From positions 1 to 41,804 of the forward strand of contig JAOPZV010000135.1 of the NCBI GenBank assembly GCA_025963935.1: a stretch of DNA of 41,804 bases, read 5' to 3'. Source of the DNA: Solirubrobacterales bacterium. GTDB lineage: Bacteria; Actinomycetota; Thermoleophilia; Solirubrobacterales; Solirubrobacteraceae. Positions 4,992-30,402 of this stretch are shown here, one piece after another; position 1 is the first letter of the stretch, and every line of letters starts with the position of its first letter. The notes under the pieces were generated by a model that searched no databases, had not been told where the DNA came from, and saw only the letters and a program-made list of their open reading frames with translations. The translations under genes and the position numbers were made by a program.

Positions 4992-5828
4992 CTAGGCGCC
5001 GGCCCGGTCGATGACGGCGAGCGGGCGCAGCGGCGAGCCCGTGCCGCCCCTGATCCGCAGTGGCGTGGCGAAGAAGGTGAAGTCGGTGACGCCATCTGCA
5101 GCCAGGACCTCGAGGTTCATCGACTCCATGATGTAGATGCCCCTCTCGAACAGGAAGTGGACGTGGACCTGCAGCGAGACCACGCCGGCCGGTTTGTGCT
5201 CGAGGTTCATGGTGTCGCTGCCGGCGGCCACGATCCCTCGCTCGCTGAGCCACTCCGCGCCGTCGCGCGTGAGCCCCGGGAGGCCCGTCTCCAGGCCGAT
5301 GTAGCTGTTTACGTCATCCCAGAAGCGCATCCAGCCGGTGCGGATCAGCACGGTGGACCCGGGCCCGGGCTCGCGGTGCTCGGAGAACCACGCGGAGAGC
5401 TCATCGGGTCCGATCCCGTCTGCAGGCGTCAGCTCGCGGCCGAACAGCGCAACCGCGTCGAGGAGGTGGCCGGGACCGAGCAGCGGCGGGATCTCCTCCG
5501 TCGAGCCGATCTCGAGGCCACCGGTGTGGGTATGGGCCCCGTCAATCGCGTGCCCCCCGTGAATCTCCCCGCAGTACGCGATGTGCCCGAGTGCATCGAT
5601 GTGGGTGCCGACGTGCGCGCCCATACTGATCAGCTCCGAGATCGCGCTGATCCCTCCCGGATAGGGGTGATCCCCGTGACGCTTGGTGAGCACGAAGGAG
5701 TAGGGCGGATGCGCCGGGTGGCGCGACATGCCCGGCACCAGCGGTACCGCGAGATCGTAGGCGCGCATCCTCCCGACTGCCGGGATGGAGCTGCTCAGAT
5801 CATGGAAGCGTCCGGCCCAGTCGTTCAT
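4992..5828 (-). CDS. Cyclase-family metal-dependent hydrolase (kynurenine formamidase-like)
   Basis: A 278-residue member of the cyclase/kynurenine-formamidase family (PF04199). The metal-binding signature HxGTHxDxxxH is intact as HVGTHIDALGH (His72, His76, Asp78, His82), and later conserved segments are visible (STVLIRTGW and VAAGSDTMNLEH). These enzymes hydrolyse amides, lactones or cyclic 1,3-diketone-type rings using one or two divalent metals. The minus-strand ATG is preceded by AAAGGAGCG, which fixes the start. It is divergent from the biotin carrier gene, with operator copy 2 between them. A TTGACA hexamer occurs on the minus strand at 5881-5876, but I do not see a convincing -10 partner. 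Ring opening of a pathway intermediate is the likely role; the substrate is unknown. Confidence 0.85.
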   Translation of the reverse strand: MNDWAGRFHDLSSSIPAVGRMRAYDLAVPLVPGMSRHPAHPPYSFVLTKRHGDHPYPGGISAISELISMGAHVGTHIDALGHIAYCGEIHGGHAIDGAHTHTGGLEIGSTEEIPPLLGPGHLLDAVALFGRELTPADGIGPDELSAWFSEHREPGPGSTVLIRTGWMRFWDDVNSYIGLETGLPGLTRDGAEWLSERGIVAAGSDTMNLEHKPAGVVSLQVHVHFLFERGIYIMESMNLEVLAADGVTDFTFFATPLRIRGGTGSPLRPLAVIDRAGA

Positions 5829-5917: not shown

Positions 5918-5957
5918 AGAGTATATTTCTCGCCAGGCAACCGTGGAGCGCACAGCC

Positions 5958-6440
5958 ATGTCCCTGAGCAGCAAAGAGATCAAGGAGATTCTGGCCATCC
6001 TCGAGGACTCGGGCTGGGATGAGGCCGAGGTGAGCGTCGGCGACGTCACGCTCTCGGTGTCCAAGGGCGCAGTCGATCGGCCCGCCCGCGGCGACACTCC
6101 AGCACCGCCACCGTCCGAGGCGTCACCGGCTCCACAGGCCGCGGCCGCCGCCGTCCCGCAGGCCGCCGCGCCGGCGCCGGACCCGCGGGCCAACGGCCAC
6201 CTCATCAGCTCTCCCAGTGTGGGGGTCTTCTGGAGAGCGCCCGAACCGGGCGCACCGCCGTTCGTCGAGGAGGGCGCCGAGGTTCAGGCGGGCCAGGCGC
6301 TTTGCATTGTCGAGATCATGAAGCTGATGCAGCAGATCACGGCCGACGTTGCCGGCATCGTCACCGCGATCCACACCGAGAACGGCGGACAGGTCGAGTT
6401 CGGCACGCCCCTGTTCAGCATCGCTCCGACATCAGCCTGA
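5958..6440 (+). CDS. accB: Biotin carboxyl carrier protein
   Basis: A 160-residue carrier protein. An N-terminal helical region (1-40) is followed by an Ala/Pro-rich flexible linker (about 46-78) and a biotinyl domain (about 80-156). The biotin-attachment motif is EIMKLM with Lys122, a normal variant of EAMKM. It carries carboxybiotin from the carboxylase to a carboxyltransferase. I take the ATG at 5958, with GGAG 9 bases upstream; an in-frame GTG at 5943 would add five residues. The biotin carboxylase follows within 5 bases. No acyl-CoA-carboxylase-type transferase (AccD/PccB) is nearby; the only transferase candidate is the PYC/OADA-type gene at 26453-27925. The symbol reflects family only, not a role in fatty-acid synthesis. 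Confidence 0.9.
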   Translation: MSLSSKEIKEILAILEDSGWDEAEVSVGDVTLSVSKGAVDRPARGDTPAPPPSEASPAPQAAAAAVPQAAAPAPDPRANGHLISSPSVGVFWRAPEPGAPPFVEEGAEVQAGQALCIVEIMKLMQQITADVAGIVTAIHTENGGQVEFGTPLFSIAPTSA

Positions 6441-6444
6441 GCCT

Positions 6445-7806
6445 GTGCGCCGCGTGCTGATCGCGAACCGCGGAGAGATCGCCGTGCGGATCGTCCGTGC
6501 CTGCTTCGACGAGTGCCTCGAGAGCGTCGTGGCGGTCTCGGCGGCGGACCGCGATTCGCTCGCCGCGGCGGCGGCCGACAAGTTCGTCGTGGTCGGTCCT
6601 GCTGCGGCGGCCGAGAGCTACCTGTCGGTCGACCGCATGCTCGCCGCCGCCAAGGCCAGCGAATGCGACGCCCTGCACCCCGGCTACGGGTTCCTCTCCG
6701 AGCGCCCCGAGCTCGCGGAGGGCTGCGAGCAGGAGGGCATCGCCTTCGTCGGGCCCCCGGCCTCGGTCATGCGCCGTTCGGGCGACAAGATGGGTGCGCG
6801 CGAGGTCGCCGCCGCAGCGGGGATCCCGATCGGCAGGGGTTCCCCCCAGGTCGAGGATCCAGACGCCGCACTGGTTGCCGCCGAGGAGATCGGGTACCCG
6901 CTGATGCTCAAGGCATCGGCCGGGGGCGGCGGTCGCGGCATGGCCGTTCTCGCGACTCCCGAGCAGCTCTCCAAGCGCTTCGAGACCGCCCGGGCGGAGG
7001 CGCTGCAGGCCTTCGGCGACGGACGCCTCTATCTGGAGCGCTACCTCGCGCGAGCACGCCATGTCGAGGTGCAGATCCTCGCCGACTCGCTGGGAAACGT
7101 CGTTCACCTGGGCGAGCGCGACTGCTCCTGTCAGCGCCGCTACCAGAAGCTCATCGAGGAGGCTCCGGCGGTGGGCCTTGACCCGGCGACCGTGCGCGAC
7201 ATTCGCGATGCCGCCGTGGTGCTGGCGCGCGAGCTCAACTACGTCGGTGCCGGCACGGTCGAGTTCCTCGTCGACCTCGAGCGCGGCGACTTCGTGTTCC
7301 TCGAGGTCAACGCGCGCGTGCAGGTCGAGCACCCGGTGACCGAGATGGTCACGGGACTGGACATCGTGCGCGAACAGCTTCGAATCGCCGCCGGCCAGCC
7401 GCTCTCGGTCACCCAGGCCGACATCGCGCTCAACGGCCACGCCGTCGAGTGCCGGGTCAACGCGGAGGACGCACGCAACGGCTTTCTGCCGTCGCCGGGC
7501 ACGCTCTCGCGCTGGGTCCCACCGGTGGCGTCGAACATCCGCGTCGACACCCACTGCCGCCCCGGCGAGGTCATCACGCCCTACTACGACTCGCTCCTGG
7601 CCAAGGTGATCGCCTGGGCACCGGACCGGCCGGCCGCGCTCGAGCTCATGCGCCGCGGCCTGGATCGCTTCCGGATCGAGGGTGTCCACAGCACGGTCCC
7701 GCTGCTCCGTGACGTTGTCGCGGAGCCGGCGTTCGCCCGTGAGCCGGTCACCACACGCTGGCTCGAGGACGAGTTCCTTGGCTCCTGGATGGACGGCGGC
7801 GGCTAG
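6445..7806 (+). CDS. accC: Biotin carboxylase
   Basis: A 453-residue ATP-grasp biotin carboxylase that forms carboxybiotin from ATP and bicarbonate. The N-terminal domain starts RRVLIANRGEIAVRIVRAC; the HPGYGFLSE motif is at about 78-86. The ATP lid glycine loop is KASAGGGGRGM (from Lys156), followed by HVEVQILAD and GERDCSCQRRYQKLIEE. The metal/catalytic segment EVNARVQVEHPVTE differs from the common MNTRLQVEHPVTE but keeps the catalytic Arg and Glu. The length equals stand-alone AccC, so no BCCP is fused. GTG at 6445 is used because translation from it gives the standard N-terminus; no clear SD is seen and the gene is probably coupled to the carrier gene 5 bases upstream. Confidence 0.93.
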   Translation: MRRVLIANRGEIAVRIVRACFDECLESVVAVSAADRDSLAAAAADKFVVVGPAAAAESYLSVDRMLAAAKASECDALHPGYGFLSERPELAEGCEQEGIAFVGPPASVMRRSGDKMGAREVAAAAGIPIGRGSPQVEDPDAALVAAEEIGYPLMLKASAGGGGRGMAVLATPEQLSKRFETARAEALQAFGDGRLYLERYLARARHVEVQILADSLGNVVHLGERDCSCQRRYQKLIEEAPAVGLDPATVRDIRDAAVVLARELNYVGAGTVEFLVDLERGDFVFLEVNARVQVEHPVTEMVTGLDIVREQLRIAAGQPLSVTQADIALNGHAVECRVNAEDARNGFLPSPGTLSRWVPPVASNIRVDTHCRPGEVITPYYDSLLAKVIAWAPDRPAALELMRRGLDRFRIEGVHSTVPLLRDVVAEPAFAREPVTTRWLEDEFLGSWMDGGG

Positions 7807-7867: not shown

Positions 7868-7899
7868 AAGACCGGGCCCGAAAGAGAGAGTTGGGAGCT

Positions 7900-15996: not shown

Positions 15997-16483
15997 CATC
16001 GAGAGCGGCGCCCCCGAGCCGGACGCGACCGGACGCCTTTACTTCGAGGACATGACGGTGGGATCGCGCTGGGTCTCGCCCCGCCGGACGATCACCGAGG
16101 CCGACGTGAGCAACTTCGCGGGGATCTCAGGCGACTTCAACCCGCTTCACGTCGACAGCGTGTTCGCCGAGAGCGGCCCGTTCGGCCGGCGAGTGGCGCA
16201 CGGCGCGCTCGTGCTCTCGATCGCAACGGGCCTGCGCCAGCAGATGCCGATCTTCCGCGGCTCGCTGCGGGCGCTGCTCGAGCTCCGCACCTGGCGGTTC
16301 CTGGCCCCCGTTCACCTCGGCGACACGGTCGCGGTCATCACCAGCGTGCTCTCGGCGCGCGAGACCTCAAAGCCCGACCAGGGAATCGTCGTCCAGCAGC
16401 TCGACGTGGTCAACCAGCGCGGCGACTCGGTCCAGTCAGGCGAGCTGGTCTCGCTGATGGCGCGCAGGGAGCCCGCGAAATGA
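15989..16483 (+). CDS. MaoC-like (R)-hydratase / hotdog dehydratase 1
   Basis: A 164-residue single-hotdog protein. The hydratase-2 motif is clear: FAGISGDFNPLHVDSVFA followed by FGRRVAHGALVLS; the Asp-x-Asn-x-x-His dyad gives Asp and His as catalytic residues for adding water to an enoyl-CoA. Length is normal for stand-alone MaoC proteins. It overlaps the end of acyl-CoA dehydrogenase B by 8 bases and shares ATGA with the thiolase, so it most likely hydrates the product of the A/B dehydrogenase. Confidence 0.9.
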   Translation: MSDIESGAPEPDATGRLYFEDMTVGSRWVSPRRTITEADVSNFAGISGDFNPLHVDSVFAESGPFGRRVAHGALVLSIATGLRQQMPIFRGSLRALLELRTWRFLAPVHLGDTVAVITSVLSARETSKPDQGIVVQQLDVVNQRGDSVQSGELVSLMARREPAK

Positions 16484-17682
16484 GCCCCTCGGCGGTGATC
16501 GTCGATGCCGTCCGCACACCGATCGGGCGTTTCGGGGGGGCCCTCAGCGCCACCCGGCCGGATGACCTCGCGGCGCTCGTGATCGCCACCGTCATCGAGC
16601 GAACCGGACTGGAGGCAGCTGAGATCGACGACGTCTACATGGGCTGCGGCAACCAGGCGGGAGAGGACAACCGCAACGTCGCGCGGATGGCCTCGCTTCT
16701 CGCCGGGCTGCCCGTCGAGGTTCCCGGCTGCACCGTGAACCGCCTCTGCGGAAGCGGCATGGAGGCGGTTGCCGTTGCCGCACGCGCGATCGAGGCAGGG
16801 GCCGGTGAGCTCTTCCTCGCGGGCGGAGTCGAGTCGATGACCAGGGCGCCGTTCGCGCTGGCGAAGCCGAGCCGCGCCTTTCCCCGCGGCACCGCAGAGC
16901 TCGAGGACACGGCGCTCGGCTGGAGGTTCGTGAACCCGCGAATGCGCGAGCTCGGCCACACCGATTCTCTGGGCGAGACCGCCGAGAACGTGGCGCGCGA
17001 GCGTGGCATAACACGCGAGGAGCAGGATCGCTTCGCGCTGGCGAGCCACCGGCGGGCGCTCGCAGCCGCCGAGGACGGACGTCCCGCAAAGTGGTCGGTG
17101 CCGGTGCAGGCCGAGGGCGGCGAGCTCACGGCCGATGAGGGCCCCCGCCGGGACACCTCGCTCGAGCGGCTGGCCTCCCTGCGACCGGTGTTCGCTCGCG
17201 ACGGGTCTGTGACCGCCGGGAACTCGAGCCCGCTCAGCGACGGCGCGGCGGCGTTGGTCCTGACCTCCGAGGACTGCGCCAGAGCCAACGGACTGCGCCC
17301 GATGGCGCGCGTCATGGGATCGGCCACCGCGGGGGTCGAGCCGCGACTGATGGGCCTAGGCCCCCTTCCCGCCACCGAGAAGCTGACGCGCAGGCTCGGC
17401 ATCTCGATCGAGGACTTCGACACGATCGAGCTGAACGAGGCGTTCGCCTCACAGGCGGTCGCCGTGTGCAAGGAGTGGGGAATCGACCCGGACGACGACC
17501 GCGTCAATCCCGACGGAGGTGCGATCGCGCTTGGACACCCGATCGGCTGCTCGGGCGCCAGGCTGGTGGGGCAGGCGATGCATACGCTCCAGCGGACGGG
17601 CGGCCGTCTCGGCCTGGCCACCATGTGCATCGGGGTGGGTCAGGGTATCGCCGTGGCGCTGGAGCGAATCGATCAGGATTGA
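16480..17682 (+). CDS. Acetyl-CoA acyltransferase (thiolase)
   Basis: A complete 400-residue degradative thiolase of the PcaF/FadA type, cleaving a 3-oxoacyl-CoA to acetyl-CoA and a shortened acyl-CoA. The acyl-accepting cysteine is Cys90 in VNRLCGSGMEA; the second motif ELNEAFASQAVAV, the histidine motif GGAIALGHPIGCSGARL and the C-terminal cysteine motif LATMCIGVGQG are all intact. Unlike the partial gene at the left edge it keeps every catalytic residue, so it is probably the real thiolytic step of the pathway. It follows MaoC with ATGA overlap; the next start (GTG 17686) is 3 bases after its stop. Confidence 0.94.
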   Translation: MSPSAVIVDAVRTPIGRFGGALSATRPDDLAALVIATVIERTGLEAAEIDDVYMGCGNQAGEDNRNVARMASLLAGLPVEVPGCTVNRLCGSGMEAVAVAARAIEAGAGELFLAGGVESMTRAPFALAKPSRAFPRGTAELEDTALGWRFVNPRMRELGHTDSLGETAENVARERGITREEQDRFALASHRRALAAAEDGRPAKWSVPVQAEGGELTADEGPRRDTSLERLASLRPVFARDGSVTAGNSSPLSDGAAALVLTSEDCARANGLRPMARVMGSATAGVEPRLMGLGPLPATEKLTRRLGISIEDFDTIELNEAFASQAVAVCKEWGIDPDDDRVNPDGGAIALGHPIGCSGARLVGQAMHTLQRTGGRLGLATMCIGVGQGIAVALERIDQD

Positions 17683-18057: not shown

Positions 18058-18794
18058 GCACAGCCTCTCAGCGCGGGCTTGCGGTCATCACCGGCGCGGC
18101 CGGAGTGCTGGGCACGCGGATCGCCGAACGGCTCGCCGCGGACGGCCACGACCTGCTGCTCGTGGACCTCGATCGGGCCGTCGCGCTGACGGCCGAGAGG
18201 ATCGCGGCAGCGTCCTCGCGCAGAGCCGTGGCGTGCGTCGCGGACCTCACGAGCGCGGAGGGCGCCGAGGCCGTCGCTCGCAGCGCCGGGGAGGAGGGTG
18301 GAAACGTCGCGCTGCTGGTCAACAACGCGGGAATCACGCGCGACGGCAGGATCGGCGATATGCAGGAGCGCGACTTCGCCGCCGTGATCGACGTCAACCT
18401 GACCGCGGCGATGCGCCTGACGTTTGCACTCGAGCGCCTGCTGGCTGACGGATCGGTCGTCCTGAACATGAGCTCCCGCGCATCGCTCGGCAACTTCGGG
18501 CAGGCCAACTACGTCGCCTCCAAGTCCGGGCTCGTCGGCCTCACCCGGGCGCTCGCGCTGCGCTGGGCTCCCCGCGTGCGCGTCAACGCGGTGGCACCGA
18601 GCCTGATCGACACGCCGATGGCCCACTCGATGCCCGAGCACGTGCTCGAGAAGGTCGTTTCCCGCATACCCGCGGGGCGCATCGGCATGCCCGACGACGT
18701 CGCCTCGATCGTCGCCTTCCTGGCCTCGCCCGAGGCCGGCTACATCACCGGCCAGGTGCTCGTCGCATGCGGTGGACGGAGCATCGCCGCGTGA
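18054..18794 (+). CDS. Short-chain dehydrogenase/reductase 1 (FabG-like)
   Basis: A 246-residue classical SDR. The cofactor loop is TGAAGVLG (about 13-20), with Asp at the end of beta-2 (LLLVDLDR), which points to NAD(H). NNAG is present (VNNAGITRDG), the catalytic Ser is in NMSSRAS and the Tyr-Lys pair in ANYVASKSG; VRVNAVAPSLIDTPM and the GYITGQVLVACGG C-terminus complete the family pattern. It probably oxidises the 3-hydroxyacyl-CoA made by the MaoC hydratase upstream, giving the thiolase substrate. GTG start inside the GTGA shared with the short SDR-like gene; the following CoA ligase begins in another GTGA overlap. Confidence 0.9.
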   Translation: MSTASQRGLAVITGAAGVLGTRIAERLAADGHDLLLVDLDRAVALTAERIAAASSRRAVACVADLTSAEGAEAVARSAGEEGGNVALLVNNAGITRDGRIGDMQERDFAAVIDVNLTAAMRLTFALERLLADGSVVLNMSSRASLGNFGQANYVASKSGLVGLTRALALRWAPRVRVNAVAPSLIDTPMAHSMPEHVLEKVVSRIPAGRIGMPDDVASIVAFLASPEAGYITGQVLVACGGRSIAA

Positions 18795-20365
18795 GCCCGA
18801 ACTCCCTGACCGTCGGCACGCTCGTGCAGCTGGGTGCGGCCCGCTCGCCGACGAGGGCAGCCGTCATGACCCCGCGGGGAGACGTACGTACCTACGCTCA
18901 GCTCGACGCGCGCACCGACCGCCTAGCAAACGCCCTGCTTGCCAACGGCCTCGTTCCCGGAGATCGCGTTGCCGCCTGGATGGAGGACTGCGTCGAGTAC
19001 ATCGAGCTCTACCTGGCCGTGGCCAAGGCGGGCCTGGTGATGGTCCCTATCAACGCCCGGCTGCGCTCAGCCGAGGCCGCATTCCCGTTACGGGACTCGG
19101 GCGCCCGCGCACTCGTGTGGACAAGCGGCCTGAACGAGGGCGTCGGCGAGCTCGAGGAACTCGACGATCTGCTCCGCGTCTCGCTCGACGCGGATGCCGA
19201 GCGCGACTCGCACTCCTTCGAGGATCTGGTCTCGCGCGGGCGCGAGGGTGCCCCGCCGGCGCCGGAGCCCGACTCGATCTACATCATCGGCTACACCAGC
19301 GGAACGACGGGGCGGCCCAAGGGCGCAATCCTCACCCACGCGAGCGTGCTCGCGCTCGCGCGCTTGAACGCCCTCTCCTACCGGCTTCCGCTGTTCAGCG
19401 TGGCGGCGCTGACCGGGTCGATGTCGTTTGTGGCCACGGTGCCCGCACACATCATCAGCCACCTGTATGTCGGCGGCACGCTGATCGTCATGGGCCGCTG
19501 GGACGTGGAGTCGCTGCTGGCGACCGTGCAGGCCCAGCGCGCGACGTTCACCTACATCCCCTCCCCGACGCTCGCGGAATTCACCGAGGCGGCCGCGGCC
19601 GACACGACGCCGTGGTCCTCGCTCGAGTCGATTCTGCATTCCGGCTCGCGCGCGAGCCCCGACAAGCTGCGCGGGCTGTGCGAGGTGATCGGCGGTCGGT
19701 TCGTCGAGGGCCTCGGCATGACCGAGAACTCGGGCGGCCTGATCACCGCCACGACCCGCGAGGACATCGAGGGCGTCTCCGAGGCCCATGAAATCTTCGC
19801 CTCGGTGGGGCGCGCGGTGGCCGAATCGGCAGTCGACGTGCTGGATCCGGACGGTGTCCCCGTCGAGCGCGACGGCTCGAGCATCGGCGAACTGGCGATC
19901 AGCTCGCCGGCCCTGATGACGGGCTACTGGAACCTGCCGGAGGCGACGGCGCAGGCGCTGAAGGACGGCTGGTACATGACCGGCGATCTGGCCTCGATCG
20001 ACCCCGCCGGCTACGTCTACATCGCTGAGCGGCGCACGGACCTGATCATCTCGGGGGGAATGAACGTCTACCCGACCGAGGTCGAGGAGCACCTCGCGAC
20101 GATGCCCGGGGTGCTGGAGTGCGCGGTCGTCGGACTGCCACACGAGCGTTGGGGCCAGACGGTGGTCGCTGCCGTCGTGCGCGACTCCTCCGCGGCGATC
20201 TCGGAGCCGGAGGTGATCGAGCACTGCCGCCAGGGCCTGGCGAGCTACAAGAAGCCGACGACCGTGGTGTTCGTCGATGAGCTGCCGCGCACGACGAGCC
20301 TCAAGGTCAAGCGCTCCGCCATACGCGATCTGCTCGGCTCGCAGCTCGCCGAGCGGGGGAGTTGA
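18791..20365 (+). CDS. AMP-dependent acyl-CoA ligase 2
   Basis: A 524-residue adenylate-forming CoA ligase. Core motifs are YTSGTTGRPKGAILTH (A3), EGLGMTENSGG (A5), WYMTGDLASID (A7), RRTDLIISGGMNVYPTEVEE (A8) and the catalytic Lys in TTSLKVKR (A10). The A5 motif has Met-Thr-Glu-Asn-Ser where many fatty-acid ligases have TET. The order fits activation of an acid before beta-oxidation, but with three ligases in the window each may act on a different intermediate. It starts in the GTGA overlap of the SDR gene, so the unit from 10085 to here is continuously coupled. A 25-base gap separates it from the last gene of the unit. Confidence 0.88.
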   Translation: MSPNSLTVGTLVQLGAARSPTRAAVMTPRGDVRTYAQLDARTDRLANALLANGLVPGDRVAAWMEDCVEYIELYLAVAKAGLVMVPINARLRSAEAAFPLRDSGARALVWTSGLNEGVGELEELDDLLRVSLDADAERDSHSFEDLVSRGREGAPPAPEPDSIYIIGYTSGTTGRPKGAILTHASVLALARLNALSYRLPLFSVAALTGSMSFVATVPAHIISHLYVGGTLIVMGRWDVESLLATVQAQRATFTYIPSPTLAEFTEAAAADTTPWSSLESILHSGSRASPDKLRGLCEVIGGRFVEGLGMTENSGGLITATTREDIEGVSEAHEIFASVGRAVAESAVDVLDPDGVPVERDGSSIGELAISSPALMTGYWNLPEATAQALKDGWYMTGDLASIDPAGYVYIAERRTDLIISGGMNVYPTEVEEHLATMPGVLECAVVGLPHERWGQTVVAAVVRDSSAAISEPEVIEHCRQGLASYKKPTTVVFVDELPRTTSLKVKRSAIRDLLGSQLAERGS

Positions 20366-21446: not shown

Positions 21447-21545
21447 CACGCAACAACTGGCACTTACCGAGTGTTGGCTTGGGCTTGGAGAGGTCCGGGA
21501 GCAAGCAATGCGCGGGCGGCCTGGAACAAAACAGAGGAGAAATTG

Positions 21546-22916
21546 ATGCTCAAGCGTAAGCGCGTCGCACCTCAGGTGGTGCGCGATGAGGGCGGACGTC
21601 GATCGCCCGGGGGCACGCGGTTAAGGCCGTCGACCCGCTCCATCCGTCTGATCGTTGTTGCGGCCGCAGTCCTGGCCGCGGTCGTGTTGGCAGCGTGCGG
21701 GAGCAGCAAAAGCAGCTCGTCCTCGTCCTCGTCCTCGTACTCGGCGACTCCTGCCTCTGAATCGTCAGGCACGAAACCGACCGGCTCGCCGATCAAGACG
21801 TTCACGATCACGTCGATCCAGGCGCAGGCCGTGCCGACCTACCCGAACATCAAGGAAACGGCGGTCGCGTACGAAAAGTGGATCAACGGCAAAGGTGGGA
21901 TCAAAGGCCACCCGCTGCAGATCACGATCTGCGACGATCGCGGCGAACCGACCCAGGCGACGAAGTGCGCGCGTGAAGGGGTCGAAAACGGGGCCGTGGC
22001 GGGGGTTGGATCCTTCAGCTTCTTCGGCGCGAACATAGTTCCAGTGCTCGAAAAGTCGAAGACCGCCTGGTTCGGCATCTGCTGCGCGCAGTCGGCGCAG
22101 GAGCTCTCGAGCAAAACCGTCTTCCCCACCGGCAGCCAGCCGGCATATGGGGCGGCGACCGTCGCCAAGGCGTATGAAGAAGGGTGCAAACACCTGAACG
22201 CGGTGATCGTCGAAGGCGCGCAGGGAGTGTTCGAACCGGTCATGAAGAACGCCGCCAAGGCCTACAACCACCCGATCGGCAAGTTCATCAACCTGCCGAC
22301 GACCGTCAAGGACTACAGTCCGCAGGTCGCCGAAGCATTGAGCGGAAATGCGGACTGCGTGGCTGTCATCTTCGGAGAATCGTTGTTCAAAGCATGGATG
22401 CCCGCATGGCAGCAGTCGGGGACCAAAGCGCGCATGTACGGCGCCCAGGGCAACCTCAACGCACAGGCCACCAAGGGCTTCGAAAGTGCTGCCGAGGGCA
22501 GCAAAATCGTGGGGGTCTACCCGGACCTCGCGACGAAGCCATGGGCCGAAATGCGCGAAGCGCTGAAAGCAGCCAACGTCAACCAGTCGCTGGACTACGA
22601 CGCGCTCGCATCGCTCGGCGACTGGAACGGCTATGTCGCGTTCACGAAGATCGCCGAAAAAATGACAGGCACCATCGACCACAACACGTTCATAGAAGCG
22701 GCGTCGAAGACATCCGGTCTGGAAACGAACGGACAGGTCCCGACGCTCGACTTCACCAAAGAATGGACGGAAGGCCCGAAGGGCTTCAACCGGCTGTTCC
22801 AGCGCAGTTCGGCCTTCTCGAAGATCGAACACGGCAAGGTCGTTCCTGACACCGAAAAGCTGTACGACGGAACGAAGTTGATGTTGGGCACCGGCAAGCT
22901 GGGGCCGGGGGTCTAG
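21546..22916 (+). CDS. ABC transporter substrate-binding lipoprotein (branched-chain amino acid type)
   Basis: A 456-residue periplasmic-binding-fold protein (Peripla_BP_6 type). The N-terminus is basic, a hydrophobic stretch (about 34-50) ends in the lipobox LAAC with Cys51, and a run of serines (52-64) gives a flexible tether, so it is an exported lipoprotein. The mature part has YPNIKETAVAYEKWINGKGG and GHPLQITICDDRG, the hallmark start of the LivJ-like fold. AGAGGAGA at 21532-21539 fixes the ATG at 21546. Codon use is odd: Glu is encoded by GAA 23 times and GAG 3 times, while the neighbouring ATPase uses GAG almost always. In this context it more likely binds the pathway's substrate than an amino acid. 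Confidence 0.9.
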   Translation: MLKRKRVAPQVVRDEGGRRSPGGTRLRPSTRSIRLIVVAAAVLAAVVLAACGSSKSSSSSSSSSYSATPASESSGTKPTGSPIKTFTITSIQAQAVPTYPNIKETAVAYEKWINGKGGIKGHPLQITICDDRGEPTQATKCAREGVENGAVAGVGSFSFFGANIVPVLEKSKTAWFGICCAQSAQELSSKTVFPTGSQPAYGAATVAKAYEEGCKHLNAVIVEGAQGVFEPVMKNAAKAYNHPIGKFINLPTTVKDYSPQVAEALSGNADCVAVIFGESLFKAWMPAWQQSGTKARMYGAQGNLNAQATKGFESAAEGSKIVGVYPDLATKPWAEMREALKAANVNQSLDYDALASLGDWNGYVAFTKIAEKMTGTIDHNTFIEAASKTSGLETNGQVPTLDFTKEWTEGPKGFNRLFQRSSAFSKIEHGKVVPDTEKLYDGTKLMLGTGKLGPGV

Positions 22917-22934
22917 TCTCAGCGAGCTAGGCCA

Positions 22935-22970
22935 GGCGCCGGGCCGGGAGATCATCTCCGGTCCGGCGCC
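22935..22970 (+). promoter_or_regulatory. Long stable hairpin between binding-protein and permease genes
   Basis: GGCGCCGG...CCGGCGCC flanks a nearly complete stem: arm 22935-22952 pairs with 22954-22970, with one bulge and one G-T wobble. No T-run follows. Such hairpins after binding-protein genes commonly protect the upstream mRNA or attenuate readthrough, so that binding protein exceeds permease; this role is inferred. Confidence 0.55.
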
Positions 22971-23005
22971 GAAGCCGGTGGCCGCCGATCAGCCAAGGGG
23001 AGCTC

Positions 23006-25750
23006 ATGCAAGAAGTCATTCGTTTCGCACTTCTAGGCCTCGGCGTCGGAGCGCTCTACTCCCTCGCCTCCCAGGGCTTGATCGTCATATACCGCGGCTC
23101 GGGGGTGCTGAACTTCGCCCTCGGCGCCATGGGAATGGTCGGCGTCTATGTCGAGTGGGAACTACACGTCGAACAGGGCTGGCCCTTCATTCCAGCGATG
23201 CTCGCCGGCGTTGCCTTCTCGGCGCTCGTCGGTGCGCTCACATACCTGCTGATCATGCGACCGCTGCGCCGGGTCTCGGCCCTGGTGCGCGTGATCGCGA
23301 CGCTCGGCGTCCTGACGACGCTGCAGGCGCTCGCCGTGCTCCGCTACGGGACGATTCCCAAGTTCGTGCCCAGCGAGCTGCCCACGAACGTATGGAAAAT
23401 CTCGGGCAACATCGTGATCTCGGCGGACCGCGTGATCCTGCTCGGGATCGCCGCCGTGCTGACCGCAGGCCTGTGGCTCCTGTACCGCTACACCCGATTC
23501 GGGATCGCGACGAGCGCGGTTGCGGAGAACGAGCGAGTGGCCTCGACCCTCGGCTGGTCTCCTGACCGCGTCGCCACGATCAACTGGGCGCTCGGCTCGG
23601 CGATCGCGGGCTTCGCCGCGATCCTGATCGCGCCAATCGTGACGCTCCAGGTGACGGTGATGACGAGCCTGATCCTGGCCGCCACCGCCGCCGCGCTGGT
23701 CGCCGGCTTCCGCTCCTTTCCCCTGGCCCTGGCCGCGGGGGTCGGGATCGGGATCGCGCAGACCGAGCTCAATCGCTACGTCGCCCAGCCCGGATTCGGC
23801 GAATCTGTCCCGTTCATCGTGATCGTCGCCGTGTTGGTGCTGCGCGGCCAGGCGATCCCGCTGCGCGACCACCTGCTCCAACGACTCCCGTCGGTGGGCA
23901 CCGGCAACCTCCGGCTCCGCACCCTGATCCCCGTGGTGATCATCGGGGCGCTGATCATCTCTCGGCTGGACCCGAGCTGGACCGAAGCGGTGACGATCAC
24001 CATCTCCTACGCGATCGTGCTGCTCTCGGTGGTCGTGCTCACCGGCTATGCCGGGCAGCTCTCGCTCGCTCAGTTCGCGATTGCCGGCTTCGGCGCCTTC
24101 GTTGCCGGGCGGCTGGTCGCGACGACAGGCATGTCATTCCTGCCCGCGCTGCTGATCGGCGTGGCCGCGGCGGTCCCGCTCGGAGCGCTGTTCGCGCTGC
24201 CCGCCGTACGCACGCGAGGCATCAACCTCGCGATCGTGACGCTCGGCCTCGGGGTGGCGATCGAACTGATGATCTTCAGGAATCCCGCCTACACGGGCAA
24301 CTTCAAGGGAACGCAGATCGGCGAACCAAAGCTGTTCGGCTGGAACATCCAGTCCTTCTCGCATCCGGCGCGCTATGCCTTCGTGACGCTCGCGCTGTTC
24401 ATCCTGTGCGTGGTGGTGGTGTCGAACGTCCGGCGAGGAGCCAGCGGGCGACGCCTGATCGCCGTCCGCACGAACGAGCGGGCCGCAGCAGCGCTCGGGA
24501 TCGGCGTCCCCGTGGCGAAGCTGTACGCATTCGCCCTCTCGGCCGCCATCGCCGCCGTCGGCGGGATCGTGCTCGCGTTTCGCCTCGAAACCGTCGACTA
24601 CACGACGTTCACGAGCTTCACGTCGATCCTGCTCGTCGGCCTGGCACTGATCGGAGGCCTCGGCTACCTCGCCGGCGCCCTGATCGGCGCGACCCTCGCC
24701 GCCGGTGCCTTCGGGCAGCAGATCCTCGACGAAGCGTTCGGCTCGAGCGTCGGCAAGTACATCGGCCTGATCGGCGGGCTCAGCATCATCGCGCTCGTCC
24801 TGATGAACCCCGACGGCGCTGCAAGAGCTCAGATCGACCAGTTCGCCTGGGTGCGCGACAAGCTCGCGGCGCGCTTTCCGCGCCTGCGCCGCAAGGCGCG
24901 CCCCCGTCCCCCGCTGCCCGCGGCCGGCCCCGTCGCCGTACCTCCCCTCACGCTCGAGGTGAAGAACATGAGCGTCTCCTACGGGCGCAATATCGCGGTC
25001 GACTCGATTTCGCTGACGCTGCGCCCGGGTCGTATCACCGGCCTGATCGGACCAAACGGAGCCGGCAAGACCACTCTGATCGACGCCGTCACCGGGTTCA
25101 CCAGGATGCGCGAGGGGACGATCCTGCTGGATGGCAAGCCCGTCACCGGCTGGTCGGTGGCCCGGCGCGCTCGCGCCGGGGTCGGGCGCTCGTTCCAGTC
25201 GCTCGAGCTGTTCGAGGACTCGACCGTCCTTGACAACCTGCGCGTCGCCTCCGACCCGCAGGGCCTGTTCGTCTACCTGCGCGACCTGGTGCGCCCGAAG
25301 ACGCCCTCCCTCTCGGGCATCGTCGTCAGCGCGATCAAGGAGTTCGGGCTCGACGAGGATCTCGACCGCAAGGTCTCCGACCTTCCGTACGGCAAGCGGC
25401 GCCTGCTCGCGATCGCCCGCGCAGTGGCGATGCGCCCGCAGGTGCTCCTGCTCGACGAGCCGGCCGCCGGCCTGGGCGGCCTCGAATCCGGCGAGCTAGC
25501 CAACCTCGTCAAACGCCTCGCATCGGACTGGGGGATGGCGATCCTGCTCGTCGAGCACGACGTCAACTTCGTGATGTCGGTCTGCGACGACATCGTCGTT
25601 CTGGACTTCGGCCGCGAGATCAGCCGCGGCGAGCCCAGCAGCGTTCGTAACGACCCCGCGGTCATCGCCTCCTACCTCGGCGAGGACACAGAGGCGACCT
25701 CCGAGCCTGAACAGATACCCGCGAGTGCCGCCGGAGGTGCGCCGTCATGA
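23006..25750 (+). CDS. Fused LivH-LivM-LivG: two permease domains and an ATPase in one chain
   Basis: A 914-residue protein fusing three normally separate subunits of a branched-chain-type (HAAT) ABC importer. Residues 1 to about 290 are a LivH-like permease (starting FALLGLGVGALYSLASQGL), about 305-600 a LivM-like permease (LTGYAGQLSLAQFAIAGFGA; LVGLALIGGLGYLAGALIG), and about 645-895 a LivG-like ATPase. The ATPase has Walker A GPNGAGKTT (about 682), the LivG-type signature LPYGKRRLLAIARA (about 791), Walker B VLLLDEPAAGL and the switch His in VEHDVNF. A Pro-rich linker (RPRPPLPAAGPVAVPP) joins permease and ATPase. Start ATG with GGGGAGC upstream. LivF starts in its ATGA overlap. The reading frame is unbroken, so this is a genuine fusion. 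Confidence 0.92.
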   Translation: MQEVIRFALLGLGVGALYSLASQGLIVIYRGSGVLNFALGAMGMVGVYVEWELHVEQGWPFIPAMLAGVAFSALVGALTYLLIMRPLRRVSALVRVIATLGVLTTLQALAVLRYGTIPKFVPSELPTNVWKISGNIVISADRVILLGIAAVLTAGLWLLYRYTRFGIATSAVAENERVASTLGWSPDRVATINWALGSAIAGFAAILIAPIVTLQVTVMTSLILAATAAALVAGFRSFPLALAAGVGIGIAQTELNRYVAQPGFGESVPFIVIVAVLVLRGQAIPLRDHLLQRLPSVGTGNLRLRTLIPVVIIGALIISRLDPSWTEAVTITISYAIVLLSVVVLTGYAGQLSLAQFAIAGFGAFVAGRLVATTGMSFLPALLIGVAAAVPLGALFALPAVRTRGINLAIVTLGLGVAIELMIFRNPAYTGNFKGTQIGEPKLFGWNIQSFSHPARYAFVTLALFILCVVVVSNVRRGASGRRLIAVRTNERAAAALGIGVPVAKLYAFALSAAIAAVGGIVLAFRLETVDYTTFTSFTSILLVGLALIGGLGYLAGALIGATLAAGAFGQQILDEAFGSSVGKYIGLIGGLSIIALVLMNPDGAARAQIDQFAWVRDKLAARFPRLRRKARPRPPLPAAGPVAVPPLTLEVKNMSVSYGRNIAVDSISLTLRPGRITGLIGPNGAGKTTLIDAVTGFTRMREGTILLDGKPVTGWSVARRARAGVGRSFQSLELFEDSTVLDNLRVASDPQGLFVYLRDLVRPKTPSLSGIVVSAIKEFGLDEDLDRKVSDLPYGKRRLLAIARAVAMRPQVLLLDEPAAGLGGLESGELANLVKRLASDWGMAILLVEHDVNFVMSVCDDIVVLDFGREISRGEPSSVRNDPAVIASYLGEDTEATSEPEQIPASAAGGAPS

Positions 25751-26481
25751 CCACGCTGCTACAGACCCGCGGACTGTCGGCCGGATACGGCGGCCAGCCG
25801 GTGGTGCACGAGATCGAGATCGAGGTACGCGAGGGCGAGATCGTCGCGCTGCTGGGGGCCAACGGCGCGGGCAAGACGACAACGCTGCTGACGATGGCCG
25901 GAGAGCTTCCGGTGATCGCAGGCGAGGTCCTGTTCGACGGAACGGTCACCAAGGCGCCGCTGCACCGCAGGGCACGCAAAGGCCTCGGCTACATCACCGA
26001 GGAGCGCTCCGTCTTCATGGGTCTGAGCGCCCGCGACAACCTGCGCTGCGGCGGAGTGAGCCCGGCGCAGGCGCTGGAGCTCTTCCCTGAGCTTGACCGC
26101 TGCATGGACACCCGCGGCGGCCTGCTCTCCGGCGGCGAGCAGCAGATGCTCACGCTGGCCCGCGCGATCGCCCGCAAGCCACGTCTGCTGCTCGCCGACG
26201 AGCTCTCGATGGGGCTGGCGCCGCTGATCGTCGACCGGCTCCTGAAGGCCGTCCGCGCCGCGGCCGACTCGGGCACGGCGGTCTTGATCGTCGAGCAGTA
26301 CGCCCGCAAGGCCCTCAACTACGCCGACCGCGTCTACGTGATGCGCGGCGGCCGCATCGAGATGGACCTCACGGCGGCAGAGGCGCGCGGCCGCCTTGCC
26401 GACATCGAGGCCGCTTATCTTTCGACGGCGGCGCGCACGGACAACGGGAACCTCACGCCGGCGCCCGGCGGCGCAGCTTGA
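25747..26481 (+). CDS. livF: LivF-type ABC transporter ATPase
   Basis: A 244-residue ATP-binding subunit, the second ATPase of the branched-chain-type importer. Walker A is GANGAGKTT (about 38-46), the signature LSGGEQQMLTLARAIA, Walker B LLLADELSMGLAP (Ala-Asp-Glu is usual for LivF), and the switch region IVEQYARKAL has Gln in place of the His seen in LivG, also usual for LivF. It pairs with the LivG domain fused to the permeases. ATGA overlap with the upstream gene. The last 29 bases overlap the 3' end of the convergent carboxyltransferase gene. Confidence 0.92.
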   Translation: MTTLLQTRGLSAGYGGQPVVHEIEIEVREGEIVALLGANGAGKTTTLLTMAGELPVIAGEVLFDGTVTKAPLHRRARKGLGYITEERSVFMGLSARDNLRCGGVSPAQALELFPELDRCMDTRGGLLSGGEQQMLTLARAIARKPRLLLADELSMGLAPLIVDRLLKAVRAAADSGTAVLIVEQYARKALNYADRVYVMRGGRIEMDLTAAEARGRLADIEAAYLSTAARTDNGNLTPAPGGAA

Positions 26482-27925
26482 TCGAAAGGCCCGGCTGAGA
26501 CAGCGACAGGGAGCGCGCATTCTGGGCCTCGGCGACCAGCTCGCGCACGTTCTCGACGATCAGTGAGGCCGACGTCCGGGGATCGGTGCGGATCGGCCCG
26601 GAGGCCAGCATCGCGTCGACCTCATCGGCCGCGAACAGGATCCGCAGCAGCAGCTCCTCGTCAGAGATCCCGCGACCGAAGCGCGAGCGAAGCTCACCGA
26701 TCGTCGGCTGCGGCGGCTCCCAGGCTTCGAAGTGCGGCGCACGCGCGGCGGCCAGGATCCTGTCCTTGACGTCCGGCTGCACCGGGCGCATCAGCGGCCC
26801 GTACTGCCCGAGGGTGTACTGGATGACCTCGTCCGGCACGAGCTTGTAGCGCTCGCCGCTGACGATGTTCAGGAGTGCCTGAATGCCGACGAACTGTGAG
26901 AAGGGAGTCGCCATGATCGGCTGTCCGAGCTCCTCGCGCACCCGCGGGATCTCCTCGAGCACCTCCTGCAGGCGGTCCTCCATGCCGTGCTGGGCGAGCT
27001 GGCTCTTGAGGCTGCCGGTCATTCCGCCGGGCAGCTGGTGCTCGTAGGGGCGCAGGCTGAACTCGCTCGGCACGCCCGTCTCGTAGCCCGCCTCGGCGGC
27101 GATCCGTGCGAAATGCTCGGCGACAGCCGGTAGCTCGCTGACGTCCAGGCTGTGATCGTGCCCCAGCACGGCGAGGTTGTCGACCATCGCCTCGGTTGAC
27201 GGCAGCGATGGTCCGTTGGCCATCGGCAGCGAGCAGGTGTGGAGGATGTCGATCCCGTGGCGCAGGCCCTCGAGGTAGACGCGAGTGGCCTCCCCCGTGG
27301 TGTTGTGCGAGTGCAGCTCGAGCGGCGTGTCGCCGACCGCCGCCTTGACCGCAGGGAGCAGCGTCTTCGCGCGCTCCACCGTCAGCACTCCCGGCGCGTC
27401 CTCGAGCTCGACGCTCGGGACCCCCCAGCTCGCCATTTCCCTCGCCCGATCGGCGAAGAACTCATCCGTGTGCACGTCGGTCAACCCGTACATCACGGTC
27501 GGCGCCGGCTCCGCTCCCGCTTCCTTGATGACATCCACGACCCGCTTCACGCGCGGCATGTCGTACAGGCAGTCGAACAGCCAGAAGCTGCCGATTCCGT
27601 GCCGGCTCGCGGTGTTGATCCACAGATCGACGACGGAGTCCGGCGAGAAGCCCATGATGCCCACGGAATTGGTCCTGGTCGCCGTCCGCAGCTTGTTGTT
27701 CGGCAGCCCGGCCGCGAGGAAGTCGGTGGCCGCCCACGGGTCTTCTTTGAAGGTGCGCAGCAGGACGGTGAACATGCCCGGGCCGGTGAGGTCGATCGTG
27801 CGAAAGCCCGTCTGGTCGAGGTGGGGAAGCGCCTCGGCGGCCTGGAAGGGACGCATCCGCAGTCCCCACAGGCTCTGCTGGCCGTCGCGAAGCGTCTGGT
27901 CGATGAAGTCAACGTGCACTCCCAC
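26453..27925 (-). CDS. PYC/OADA-type biotin carboxyltransferase-like protein
   Basis: A 490-residue protein with the DRE-TIM (HMGL-like) barrel plus the PYC_OADA C-terminal domain of pyruvate carboxylase, oxaloacetate decarboxylase alpha and transcarboxylase 5S. The N-terminus has DQTLRDGQQSLWGLRM (Asp9, Arg13, Asp14), then EDPWAATDFL and a metal pair in LELHSHNTTG (His205, His207). The C-terminal YEHQLPGGMTGSLKSQ and IMATPFSQFVGIQALL match PGGQxTNL and VTPSSKVVG. The carbamylated-Lys segment, usually IKDMAG, reads LEDAPG, with Glu175 for Lys. No biotinyl domain is fused, so a separate carrier (5958-6440) would be needed. Divergent from hyuB with operator copy 5 between. Its acceptor is probably not pyruvate, given the altered active site. 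Confidence 0.8.
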   Translation of the reverse strand: MGVHVDFIDQTLRDGQQSLWGLRMRPFQAAEALPHLDQTGFRTIDLTGPGMFTVLLRTFKEDPWAATDFLAAGLPNNKLRTATRTNSVGIMGFSPDSVVDLWINTASRHGIGSFWLFDCLYDMPRVKRVVDVIKEAGAEPAPTVMYGLTDVHTDEFFADRAREMASWGVPSVELEDAPGVLTVERAKTLLPAVKAAVGDTPLELHSHNTTGEATRVYLEGLRHGIDILHTCSLPMANGPSLPSTEAMVDNLAVLGHDHSLDVSELPAVAEHFARIAAEAGYETGVPSEFSLRPYEHQLPGGMTGSLKSQLAQHGMEDRLQEVLEEIPRVREELGQPIMATPFSQFVGIQALLNIVSGERYKLVPDEVIQYTLGQYGPLMRPVQPDVKDRILAAARAPHFEAWEPPQPTIGELRSRFGRGISDEELLLRILFAADEVDAMLASGPIRTDPRTSASLIVENVRELVAEAQNARSLSLSQPGLSIKLRRRAPA

Positions 27926-28077: not shown

Positions 28078-30402
28078 ATGAGTCAAGCGGTTGAGGAGCT
28101 TCAAAGCCCGAGGACGGAGATCGCGTGGGACGGTCGACTCCACAGCTACCGCTCGGCGCCCGACTGGATGGATCGCGTGTCCGAGGACCTGCTCCTCTAC
28201 GAGGAGATCGACGAGCAGCTGGATCCCGTGACCTTCGAGGTGATTCGCAACCGCCTCTGGACAATCAACATCGCGCATGGCGAGGCGATGACGCGGATCT
28301 CTGGCTCGCCGACATTCCAGGCGCTGGACTTCAACATGTGCATCATGACGGAGGCCGGCGAGATCGCCATGAACGCCCCATTCCTGCAGTACCTCGCGTC
28401 GGGCTCGCCGATGGCGATCCGCTACGTGATGGAGAACTTCAGCGGCGATCCCGGCATCCACGAGGGAGACGTCTTCATCGGCAACGATCCCTGGGTCGGC
28501 GCCGCGCACCAGATGGACGTGCTCGTCGCCCAGCCCGTGTTCGTCGACGGCAAGCTCTTCGCGTGGGTGTCCAACGCCGGCCACCAATACGACCTCGGCG
28601 GGATCGTGCCCGGCGGCTGGCCGCAGAACGCGGTCGACGTCTACAGCGACCCCACGCTGTTCAGCCCGTTCAAGCTGGTGGAGCGCGGCGTCATGCGCCG
28701 CGACCTCGAGCAGATGTACCGCCGACAGTCGCGCATGCCGGACCTCGTTGCCCTTGACCTGCGCGCGCAGCTCGCCGGCTGCCGCTTCGCGACCGAGCAG
28801 TTGCAGGAGGCCTGCCGCCAGTTCGGGGCGCCCACGGTCAAGGCGGCGATGAAGCAGATCCTCGACAACGCGCAGCGCGCGTTCGCGGAGAAGCTGCAGC
28901 GCATCCCGGACGGCACCTGGAGCGAGGTGCGCTGGTTCGATGAGCAACTGCCGGGCGACCGCGGTACCCATCGGATGCAGGTCAACGTCACGAAGGAGGC
29001 CGACCGCCTCCGTATTGACAACGTTGGCACCGACGAGCAGGCGGAGGGTCCCAACGGGTTCGTCTTCACGGGCTTCGCCGGCTCGCTGATGGGCGTCATC
29101 TCGGTCTCGATGCTGGCGGATCAGATGTTCTCGATCGGCGGCGCCGAGCGACAGATCGACTTCGACCCCACGCCCGGACTGCTCACCTGTTGTGACTATC
29201 CCGCCGCCGTCAGCGGCGGCGTCATGAACATCCTCACCCACATGAACGCGCTGATGGTCATCTTCAGCCGGATGCTCGCATGCGATCCCGAGGTCAAGGG
29301 CGATCTGATCGGCGCTGGACCGGAGTGGCCACTGCTCGTGCTCGCCGGGACCGACGACCGCGACAGCTTCTTCGGCACGGCGCTGATGGACGCCTCCGCG
29401 ATGGGCTCGGGCGCACGCGCGTTCAAGGACGGCGTCGACACGAGCGGTCCGGCGTGGAGCCCGCTGATCCGCCTGCTCAACATCGAGGCCAGCGAGCAGT
29501 GGTACCCGATCGTCTACCTGTACCGCCGCGAGCTCACCGACGGGGGCGGCGCCGGGCGCTGGCGTGGCGGCACCGGCATGGAGGAGGCCGTCACCCCCTA
29601 CCGCGCGAAGGCTATCGAGGCGATCACCAACACCGGCGGCTCCGGTGTCTCGACGCACGGCTGCATGGGCGTCTTCGGCGGCATGCCATCGCCGACCGCG
29701 CGCTACCTGCTGGCGAAGGGCACGAACGTCGAGCGCCTCTTCGCCGAGCGGATCGTGCCCCAGGACATCGACACGATCGAGGCCGAGTCGCGCGAGCTGC
29801 TGCGCGCGAAGTCAAACGGCGCGCCGTTCGTCGCCGGCGACATGCTGGAGGCTGTCTTCACCGGCGGGGGCGGCTACGGGGACCCGCTCGAGCGCGAGCC
29901 CGAGCGTGTCGCGGGCGATGTCGCGCTCGGCTACGTCTCGGCCGGGGTCGCCGCCGATCTCCACGGCGTCGTGATCGACACGGAAGGCGCGGCCGACGCC
30001 GCGCGGACGGAGGAGCTGCGCGAGCGCAAGCGCTCCGAGCGTGGCGAGTGGAAGCCCTCCTCCGGGAGGTTCGGAGAGCCGCCCGCACCGGCCTCGCCCG
30101 CCACGGGCGAGCCGCCGCGCTCCGTCCATGAGTACCTCGAGGCACGCGACGTCGAGGGCCATCGTGTGCTCGCGTGCAGCCGCTGTGACACCGTGATCGC
30201 CGACTACCGCGGTAACTACAAGCTCGGCCTACTGATGGACGAGGGCCCCCTGACGCTCGTGCCCCTCGTGATCGACCCGGCGCACTTCCTCGACGACGAG
30301 ATGGTGCTGCGCCGCTTCTGCTGCCCGGGCTGCAGGACCCAGATGGCAACCGAGCTCGTCAGGTCCGACGAGCCGCTCGTCACCGAGTTCCGCTTCGCAT
30401 GA
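28078..30402 (+). CDS. hyuB: HyuB fused to an acetone-carboxylase gamma-like zinc domain
   Basis: A 774-residue protein. Residues about 45-640 are the hydantoinase B/oxoprolinase-C family: DPVTFEVIRNRLWTINIAHG, then GDVFIGNDPWVGAAHQMD, NAGHQYDLGG, the GRWRGGTGMEEAV segment and the closing GGGGYGDPLEREPE. After an Arg/Pro-rich linker (about 650-680) comes a domain not present in hydantoinases: VLACSRCDTVIADYRGNYK (Cys700, Cys703) and FCCPGCRTQMATEL (Cys748, Cys749, Cys752), ending at 774. This resembles the small zinc-binding gamma subunit of acetone/acetophenone carboxylases. AGGAGG at 28064-28069 supports the ATG. Followed by hyuA after 42 bases. Together they suggest an ATP-dependent ketone carboxylase; the substrate is unknown. 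Confidence 0.85.
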   Translation: MSQAVEELQSPRTEIAWDGRLHSYRSAPDWMDRVSEDLLLYEEIDEQLDPVTFEVIRNRLWTINIAHGEAMTRISGSPTFQALDFNMCIMTEAGEIAMNAPFLQYLASGSPMAIRYVMENFSGDPGIHEGDVFIGNDPWVGAAHQMDVLVAQPVFVDGKLFAWVSNAGHQYDLGGIVPGGWPQNAVDVYSDPTLFSPFKLVERGVMRRDLEQMYRRQSRMPDLVALDLRAQLAGCRFATEQLQEACRQFGAPTVKAAMKQILDNAQRAFAEKLQRIPDGTWSEVRWFDEQLPGDRGTHRMQVNVTKEADRLRIDNVGTDEQAEGPNGFVFTGFAGSLMGVISVSMLADQMFSIGGAERQIDFDPTPGLLTCCDYPAAVSGGVMNILTHMNALMVIFSRMLACDPEVKGDLIGAGPEWPLLVLAGTDDRDSFFGTALMDASAMGSGARAFKDGVDTSGPAWSPLIRLLNIEASEQWYPIVYLYRRELTDGGGAGRWRGGTGMEEAVTPYRAKAIEAITNTGGSGVSTHGCMGVFGGMPSPTARYLLAKGTNVERLFAERIVPQDIDTIEAESRELLRAKSNGAPFVAGDMLEAVFTGGGGYGDPLEREPERVAGDVALGYVSAGVAADLHGVVIDTEGAADAARTEELRERKRSERGEWKPSSGRFGEPPAPASPATGEPPRSVHEYLEARDVEGHRVLACSRCDTVIADYRGNYKLGLLMDEGPLTLVPLVIDPAHFLDDEMVLRRFCCPGCRTQMATELVRSDEPLVTEFRFA

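Follow-up and report, generated by a model that had tools for sequence, protein, structure and literature searches.

The locus analysed here is a 41,804-nucleotide stretch of DNA from a soil bacterium of the Solirubrobacterales (hereafter the window). On its reverse strand, at 26453..27925, lies a gene with a GTG start that encodes a 490-aa protein of the carboxyltransferase (CT) kind. Pfam assigns an HMGL-like domain, the TIM barrel, to residues 5-270 and a PYC_OADA domain to residues 294-433, both above cut-off, and detects no biotinyl domain in the 490 residues. Predicted partners are encoded 19 kb away on the forward strand: a biotin carboxyl carrier protein (BCCP; 5943..6440) with the biotin motif EIMKLM (Biotin_lipoyl, 1.1e-19), and a biotin carboxylase (BC; 6349..7806) with Biotin_carb_N, CPSase_L_D2 and Biotin_carb_C domains. 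The bounds of the BC reading frame are mechanical, taken from a TTG at 6349, and the true start probably lies just past the BCCP stop at 6440, at about 6445.

The same cluster holds an AMP-binding acyl-CoA ligase (18767..20365) and a thiolase (16480..17682) on the forward strand and, on the reverse strand, an open reading frame (4992..5828) with 57-58% identity to a product of a Rhodococcus cluster that is annotated as 'cyclase family protein'. A substrate-binding protein and a Liv-type ABC importer occupy 21471..26481 (forward), where a single 914-aa frame (23006-25750) encodes two Liv-type permease domains and an ABC ATPase in one chain. Ligases, crotonases, acyl-CoA dehydrogenases, luciferase-like monooxygenases and cyclase-family genes are also present, and none of the 37 window frames scanned with Pfam, a part of the total, matches a dikinase-like kinase or a phosphatase. 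The CT gene adjoins a gene for a HyuB-like protein (28078-30402), whose C-terminal domain resembles acetone-carboxylase gamma (PF08882), and this gene is followed by a HyuA gene (30445-32553); another HyuA gene (7891-9996) comes directly after BC. We considered HyuA and HyuB as part of the CT system and rejected this, because in the related cluster of genome G408 the BCCP-BC pair directly precedes a ligase with no HyuA; the G408 stretches fetched contained no match to either protein. HyuA and HyuB look like accessory or separate genes.

Judged by its sequence and predicted fold, the protein is a CT of the PycB/OadA/5S type. Searches with phmmer against the PDB matched PycB (5ks8), OadA (2nx9) and transcarboxylase 5S (1rqb), and the top named NCBIfam matches were pyruvate carboxylase subunit B (PycB) and OadA. 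An AlphaFold2 model built from a 34-row input (pLDDT 88.1, pTM 0.85) was superposed by VIA-align on PycB 5ks8_D with Z 46.2 and an rmsd of 2.5 A over 431 residues, and reached Z 43.8 against 2nx9_A and Z 43.0 against 1rqh; across the three enzymes, 431-441 residues were matched at Z 43-46. The window CT shares with them the fold, the RDG and HxH motifs, the catalytic Thr and the PYC_OADA domain, but differs in having Glu for Lys, in an identity of 27-32% and in reaching no named-family cut-off. PycB and OadA also carry a fused biotinyl domain, unlike the window CT.

DRE-TIM metallolyases, such as HMG-CoA lyase and aldolases, likewise have a TIM barrel with Asp and HxH, but are not known to have a PYC_OADA domain or biotin partners. 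A Lys-less barrel of this superfamily occurs outside CTs, since an HMG-CoA-lyase-like homologue (locus L008) reads LGDTIG at the corresponding site, a loop like that of the window protein. The sequence-only reading had left room for the protein being something other than a carboxyl transferase; it would then be an HMGL/DRE-TIM aldolase or lyase that kept its PYC_OADA domain by chance. The model does match the bifunctional aldolase 1nvm_G (Z 31.9), but such matches are weaker (Z about 31-32) than the full-length match to PycB, OadA and 5S. Moreover, the catalytic Thr340 (26906..26908, reverse strand), aligned with the substrate/biotin-contacting Thr of pyruvate carboxylase, is Thr in all 60 homologues aligned, and BCCP and BC genes are present both in the window and in the BCCP-BC-CT operons of orthologues. 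We consider the aldolase or lyase reading improbable.

The departure from known CTs lies at residue 175 (codon GAG, 27401..27403, reverse strand), where the motif ELEDAPG, beginning at residue 173, confirms a Glu. In every phmmer alignment shown (5ks8, 2nx9, 1rqb), Glu175 stands opposite the Lys of IKD or LKD, and hhalign of a Glu-type alignment (7 rows) against 8 rows of the PC/PycB type reproduced this register (probability 100, E 2.3e-67), with a single column at residue 167 as the sole gap nearby. The two methods agree on the pairing of Glu175 with the carbamylated Lys, as the sequence-only reading had proposed. The one arrangement it regarded as contrary, a substitute Lys in the ligand place, appears in none of the phmmer, MAFFT or hhalign alignments. 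A sequencing slip or frameshift is ruled out, as Glu recurs at the site in 16 of the 60 distinct homologues, both in MAGs and on isolate plasmids of three Rhodococcus species.

The remainder of the metal site is retained. Asp14 of LRDG (27884..27886, reverse strand), the first metal ligand position, is Asp in 58 of 60 homologues, the other two rows being gapped, and of the metal pair His205-x-His207 (27305..27313, reverse strand) the first is His in 60 of 60 and the second in 56 of 60. Within the Glu rows, Arg13, Asp14 and Gln17 are kept in all 15 that cover them, and His205, His207, Asp176, Thr340 and Ser343 in all 16. In the model, predicted strands 172-176 and 202-206 hold Glu175 and His205, with His207 just past the latter. 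The HxH pair (H205, H207), the RDG start (R13, D14) and the PYC_OADA domain reported earlier are all present. The earlier wording that the carbamylated Lys bridges the metal needs correction: as described in PMC9581989, these CTs hold a single cation, to which that Lys is a ligand and no bridge. In the Lactococcus pyruvate carboxylase described there, Asp, two His and the carboxylysine bind the cation, Arg606 binds pyruvate, and Thr867 and Ser870 bind the biotin/substrate pair (PMC9581989); these residues are taken to be the aligned counterparts of those in the window CT.

The counterpart of the pyruvate-binding Arg by alignment is Arg84 (27674..27676, reverse strand), present in 14 of 16 Glu rows, 5/5 Gly rows, 4/4 Tyr rows, 0/1 Ser rows and 10 of 34 Lys rows. 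Its retention, together with PycB and OadA as the best named matches, would suit an ordinary oxaloacetate decarboxylase or pyruvate carboxylase that takes its Lys from another position. However, all NCBIfam equivalog scores fall far short of their cut-offs, the best being 278.2 bits against 756.5 (oadA); the aligned loop offers no replacement Lys, Asp176 is invariant in the alignment, and the cluster content is catabolic, not anaplerotic. This reading seems to us very improbable.

We drew relatives from a genome scan, from searches of relatives, class and phylum, and from plasmid records, and aligned 60 distinct CTs after duplicate removal, the window CT included. The Lys site holds Lys in 34, Glu in 16, Gly in five, Tyr in four and Ser in one, counts that do not represent natural frequencies in this non-random sample weighted to the closest relatives. 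In the class search, 192 of 399 genomes gave a match, and loci were taken from at most the best 30 of the 192. At E 1e-92 the phylum search matched 3 of 396, the window's own and two others, each with a CT (L051, L052) of the Lys type. In a maximum-likelihood tree computed with the trait columns excluded, all 26 Lys-less rows fall on one side of one branch (bootstrap 97, SH-aLRT 93, 98% of bootstrap trees) and the residue changes number four, the minimum; some long branches were flagged, including that of a Glu row (L124). Lys was lost once in this tree, and most parsimoniously Glu was the first replacement, with Gly, Tyr and Ser appearing later. The clade bears out the suggestion of a distinct subfamily, while the idea that Glu might be invariant holds for part of the Lys-less clade and fails in its sister groups, which have Gly, Tyr or Ser.

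The Gly-type CTs (L055, L059, L060, L062, L065) read LGDEAG at the Lys site and lie with BCCP-BC-CT; in four of these loci (L055, L060, L062, L065) a Liv-type importer and a substrate-binding protein with 45-71% identity to those beside the window CT follow the operon. The Tyr-type CTs (L058:9355-10692, L061:2480-3817, L022:1501-2949, L045:15001-16449) read FYDTAG or LYDTGG, and they are also the four rows without His207, each with Asn there, so that two of their four metal ligand positions are changed; His205, Asp14 and Thr340 are kept.

A strict need for a carboxylate at position 175 is disfavoured by the Gly, Tyr and Ser of these sister CTs. The protein might be a working CT in which the metal is no longer used as in pyruvate carboxylase and the site drifts after the loss of Lys (Glu, Gly, Ser, or Tyr with His207 replaced by Asn). 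Its acceptor would then need little or no help from a metal to enolise, being either sufficiently acidic or sufficiently tightly bound, and Glu175 would not be a true ligand. This is consistent with the single origin of Lys loss, with Gly, Tyr and Ser in 5, 4 and 1 of the 26 Lys-less rows, with the Asn in all four Tyr rows, and with the BCCP-BC-CT order still found around the Gly-type CTs and one Tyr-type CT (L045). Against it, the Glu rows preserve a complete non-Lys metal set, Asp14 in 15/15 and both His205 and His207 in 16/16, and we think this reading unlikely, though it deserves more weight than the two readings dismissed above. Replacement of the carbamate by a Glu carboxylate is possible. 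There is precedent in the amidohydrolase superfamily, some enzymes of which have Glu for a carbamylated Lys, although these are binuclear hydrolases with chemistry unrelated to that of CTs. Counting against Glu as a stand-in for the carbamate is its length, about three atoms shorter than carbamyl-Lys.

Because the window contains BCCP and BC, the Rhodococcus orthologues lie in BCCP-BC-CT operons and the BC tree broadly mirrors the CT tree, the window CT very probably still works as a subunit of a biotin carboxylase. The BC tree joins the window BC to that of G408 (SH-aLRT 98), then those of the Rhodococcus loci L043 and L049 (95), then those of Gly-type operons (97). In the window's own assembly (82.5% complete) we found one CT of the PycB/OadA/5S kind, two BC matches and three AccD-type CT matches. 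Apart from a near-identical MAG, the nearest Glu-type cluster is that of G408 (CT 73%), where BCCP-BC and CT lie about 10 kb apart, at either end of the same gene row. On plasmid pA of R. pyridinivorans P23, the CT orthologue (61%) is third in BCCP-BC-CT order (L043), a second Glu-type copy has the same order (L081), and a third (L082) lies beside a biotin/lipoyl protein. The BCCP-like gene next to this third copy (L082:9465-9956) lacks the usual MK biotin motif in the aligned stretch and has many flanking transposases, possibly a sign of decay. In R. oxybenzonivorans (L044), too, a Glu-type CT lies within a BCCP-BC-CT operon.

The window and the clusters L043/L049 have in common BCCP (46%), BC (63-64%), CT (61-62%), a TetR regulator (46%), the acyl-CoA ligase (50-51%), two cyclase-family genes (51-58%), a crotonase (51%) and the thiolase (42%). 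At the level of titles and abstracts, our literature search returned a PET-esterase paper on strain P23 and no published substrate for the pA cluster. In six Glu-type loci (L012, L013, L014, L015, L016, L054), BC and BCCP were not found in the fetched flanks, some of which are short or contig ends. Genomes G228 and G250 each encode Glu-, Tyr- and Gly-type CTs (L057, L058, L059; L019, L061, L060), and in both the Gly-type operons alone showed BC frames of about 500 aa, the other BC matches lying in frames of 560-762 aa. Since just one operon-linked BCCP-BC of this kind was seen in each, several CTs may share one BC-BCCP pair, as far as these incomplete genomes indicate.

The nearest characterised relatives are the phospho-hydroxyacetophenone carboxylases HpeCBA and XccBCA. 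HpeCBA of Rhodococcus rhodochrous GD02 is a three-subunit biotin enzyme that carboxylates 4-phospho-acetophenone, in a step between kinase and phosphatase, and it has been produced in R. jostii RHA1 (PMC9618137). HpeCBA, XccBCA (Aromatoleum aromaticum EbN1) and the Acv carboxylase (Sphingobium SYK-6) have separate BCCP, BC and CT subunits encoded in catabolic operons, as here, although the window CT is set apart whereas the three genes lie together in the relatives L043, L044, L081 and L045. Lookalike operons suggest that the HpeCBA CT is of the PYC_OADA kind; one of them (L084) comprises two PEP-type kinase genes, BCCP, BC, CT, HAD and CoA ligase. Operons that are Hpe/Acv-like by synteny (L084, L047, L048) encode CTs with Lys and without Arg84, as opposed to Glu with Arg84 in the window, and the CTs of L084, L047, L048 and L083, called Hpe-like on synteny or similarity instead of published sequence, belong to the Lys clade whereas the window CT falls in the Lys-less clade. 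The Glu-type CTs of L044 and L081 lie beside a dikinase-like gene, an annotated phosphatase, and AMP-binding, OB-fold and thiolase genes; their kinase, carboxylase, phosphatase and ligase annotations resemble the proven Hpe route (PMC9618137). By this analogy, their gene set follows the Hpe logic, in which a substrate is activated, carboxylated and then cleaved in a CoA-dependent step.

Taken together, we favour, with a probability of roughly 60%, a catabolic three-subunit ketone carboxylase whose CT metal site has been rebuilt. BCCP, BC and the CT would form one biotin-dependent carboxylase within a catabolic cluster. BC would generate carboxybiotin on BCCP from ATP and bicarbonate, and the CT would pass the carboxyl group to the enolised form of a carbonyl compound, which is most likely a ketone. 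The AMP-binding ligases would then activate the beta-keto acid so formed, and the cluster thiolase or crotonases would cleave it. With the carbamylated Lys lost once in the CT branch and Glu in its place, the Glu-type metal site keeps Asp14, His205 and His207, and Glu175 would lie near the metal, most likely as a stand-in for the carbamate. An alicyclic or aliphatic ketone fits as the acceptor, which, judged by gene content, may be a distinct one. Counting against this reading are the 19 kb between the CT and BCCP/BC genes and their opposite strands, the adjoining HyuB/HyuA genes, which could serve another carboxylase or hydrolase, and the six Glu-type loci with neither BC nor BCCP in their fetched flanks. 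Going further, and at less than even confidence, we suggest that the clade dropped the carbamylated Lys and then dismantled the metal site stepwise (first Glu, later Gly, Ser, or Tyr together with HxN), so that some members would transfer the carboxyl group of biotin by means of a metal ligated by a carboxylate, or metal-free.

The carbamylated Lys is regarded as a hallmark of the CT family, and a Lys-less CT branch that keeps its partner genes is a natural test of its role. For oxaloacetate decarboxylase, this residue has been proposed as a carboxyl carrier between substrate and biotin (PMC2881705). Our literature search, mainly at title level and with most subscription journals outside it, returned no report of Lys-less CTs. 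Members of the Lys-less branch very probably work within catabolic three-subunit carboxylases, and if they are active, the carbamylated Lys would be dispensable. If the stepwise loss of the metal site is also true, this enzyme class would not strictly require the carbamate, either to ligate the metal or to relay the carboxyl group. Sister CTs with Gly, Tyr and Ser turn the choice between a carbamate role for Glu and a lost metal role into a sharp experimental question, and the clade points to an unexplored set of ketone carboxylases with catabolic roles, encoded by soil actinobacteria and by plasmids of Rhodococcus.
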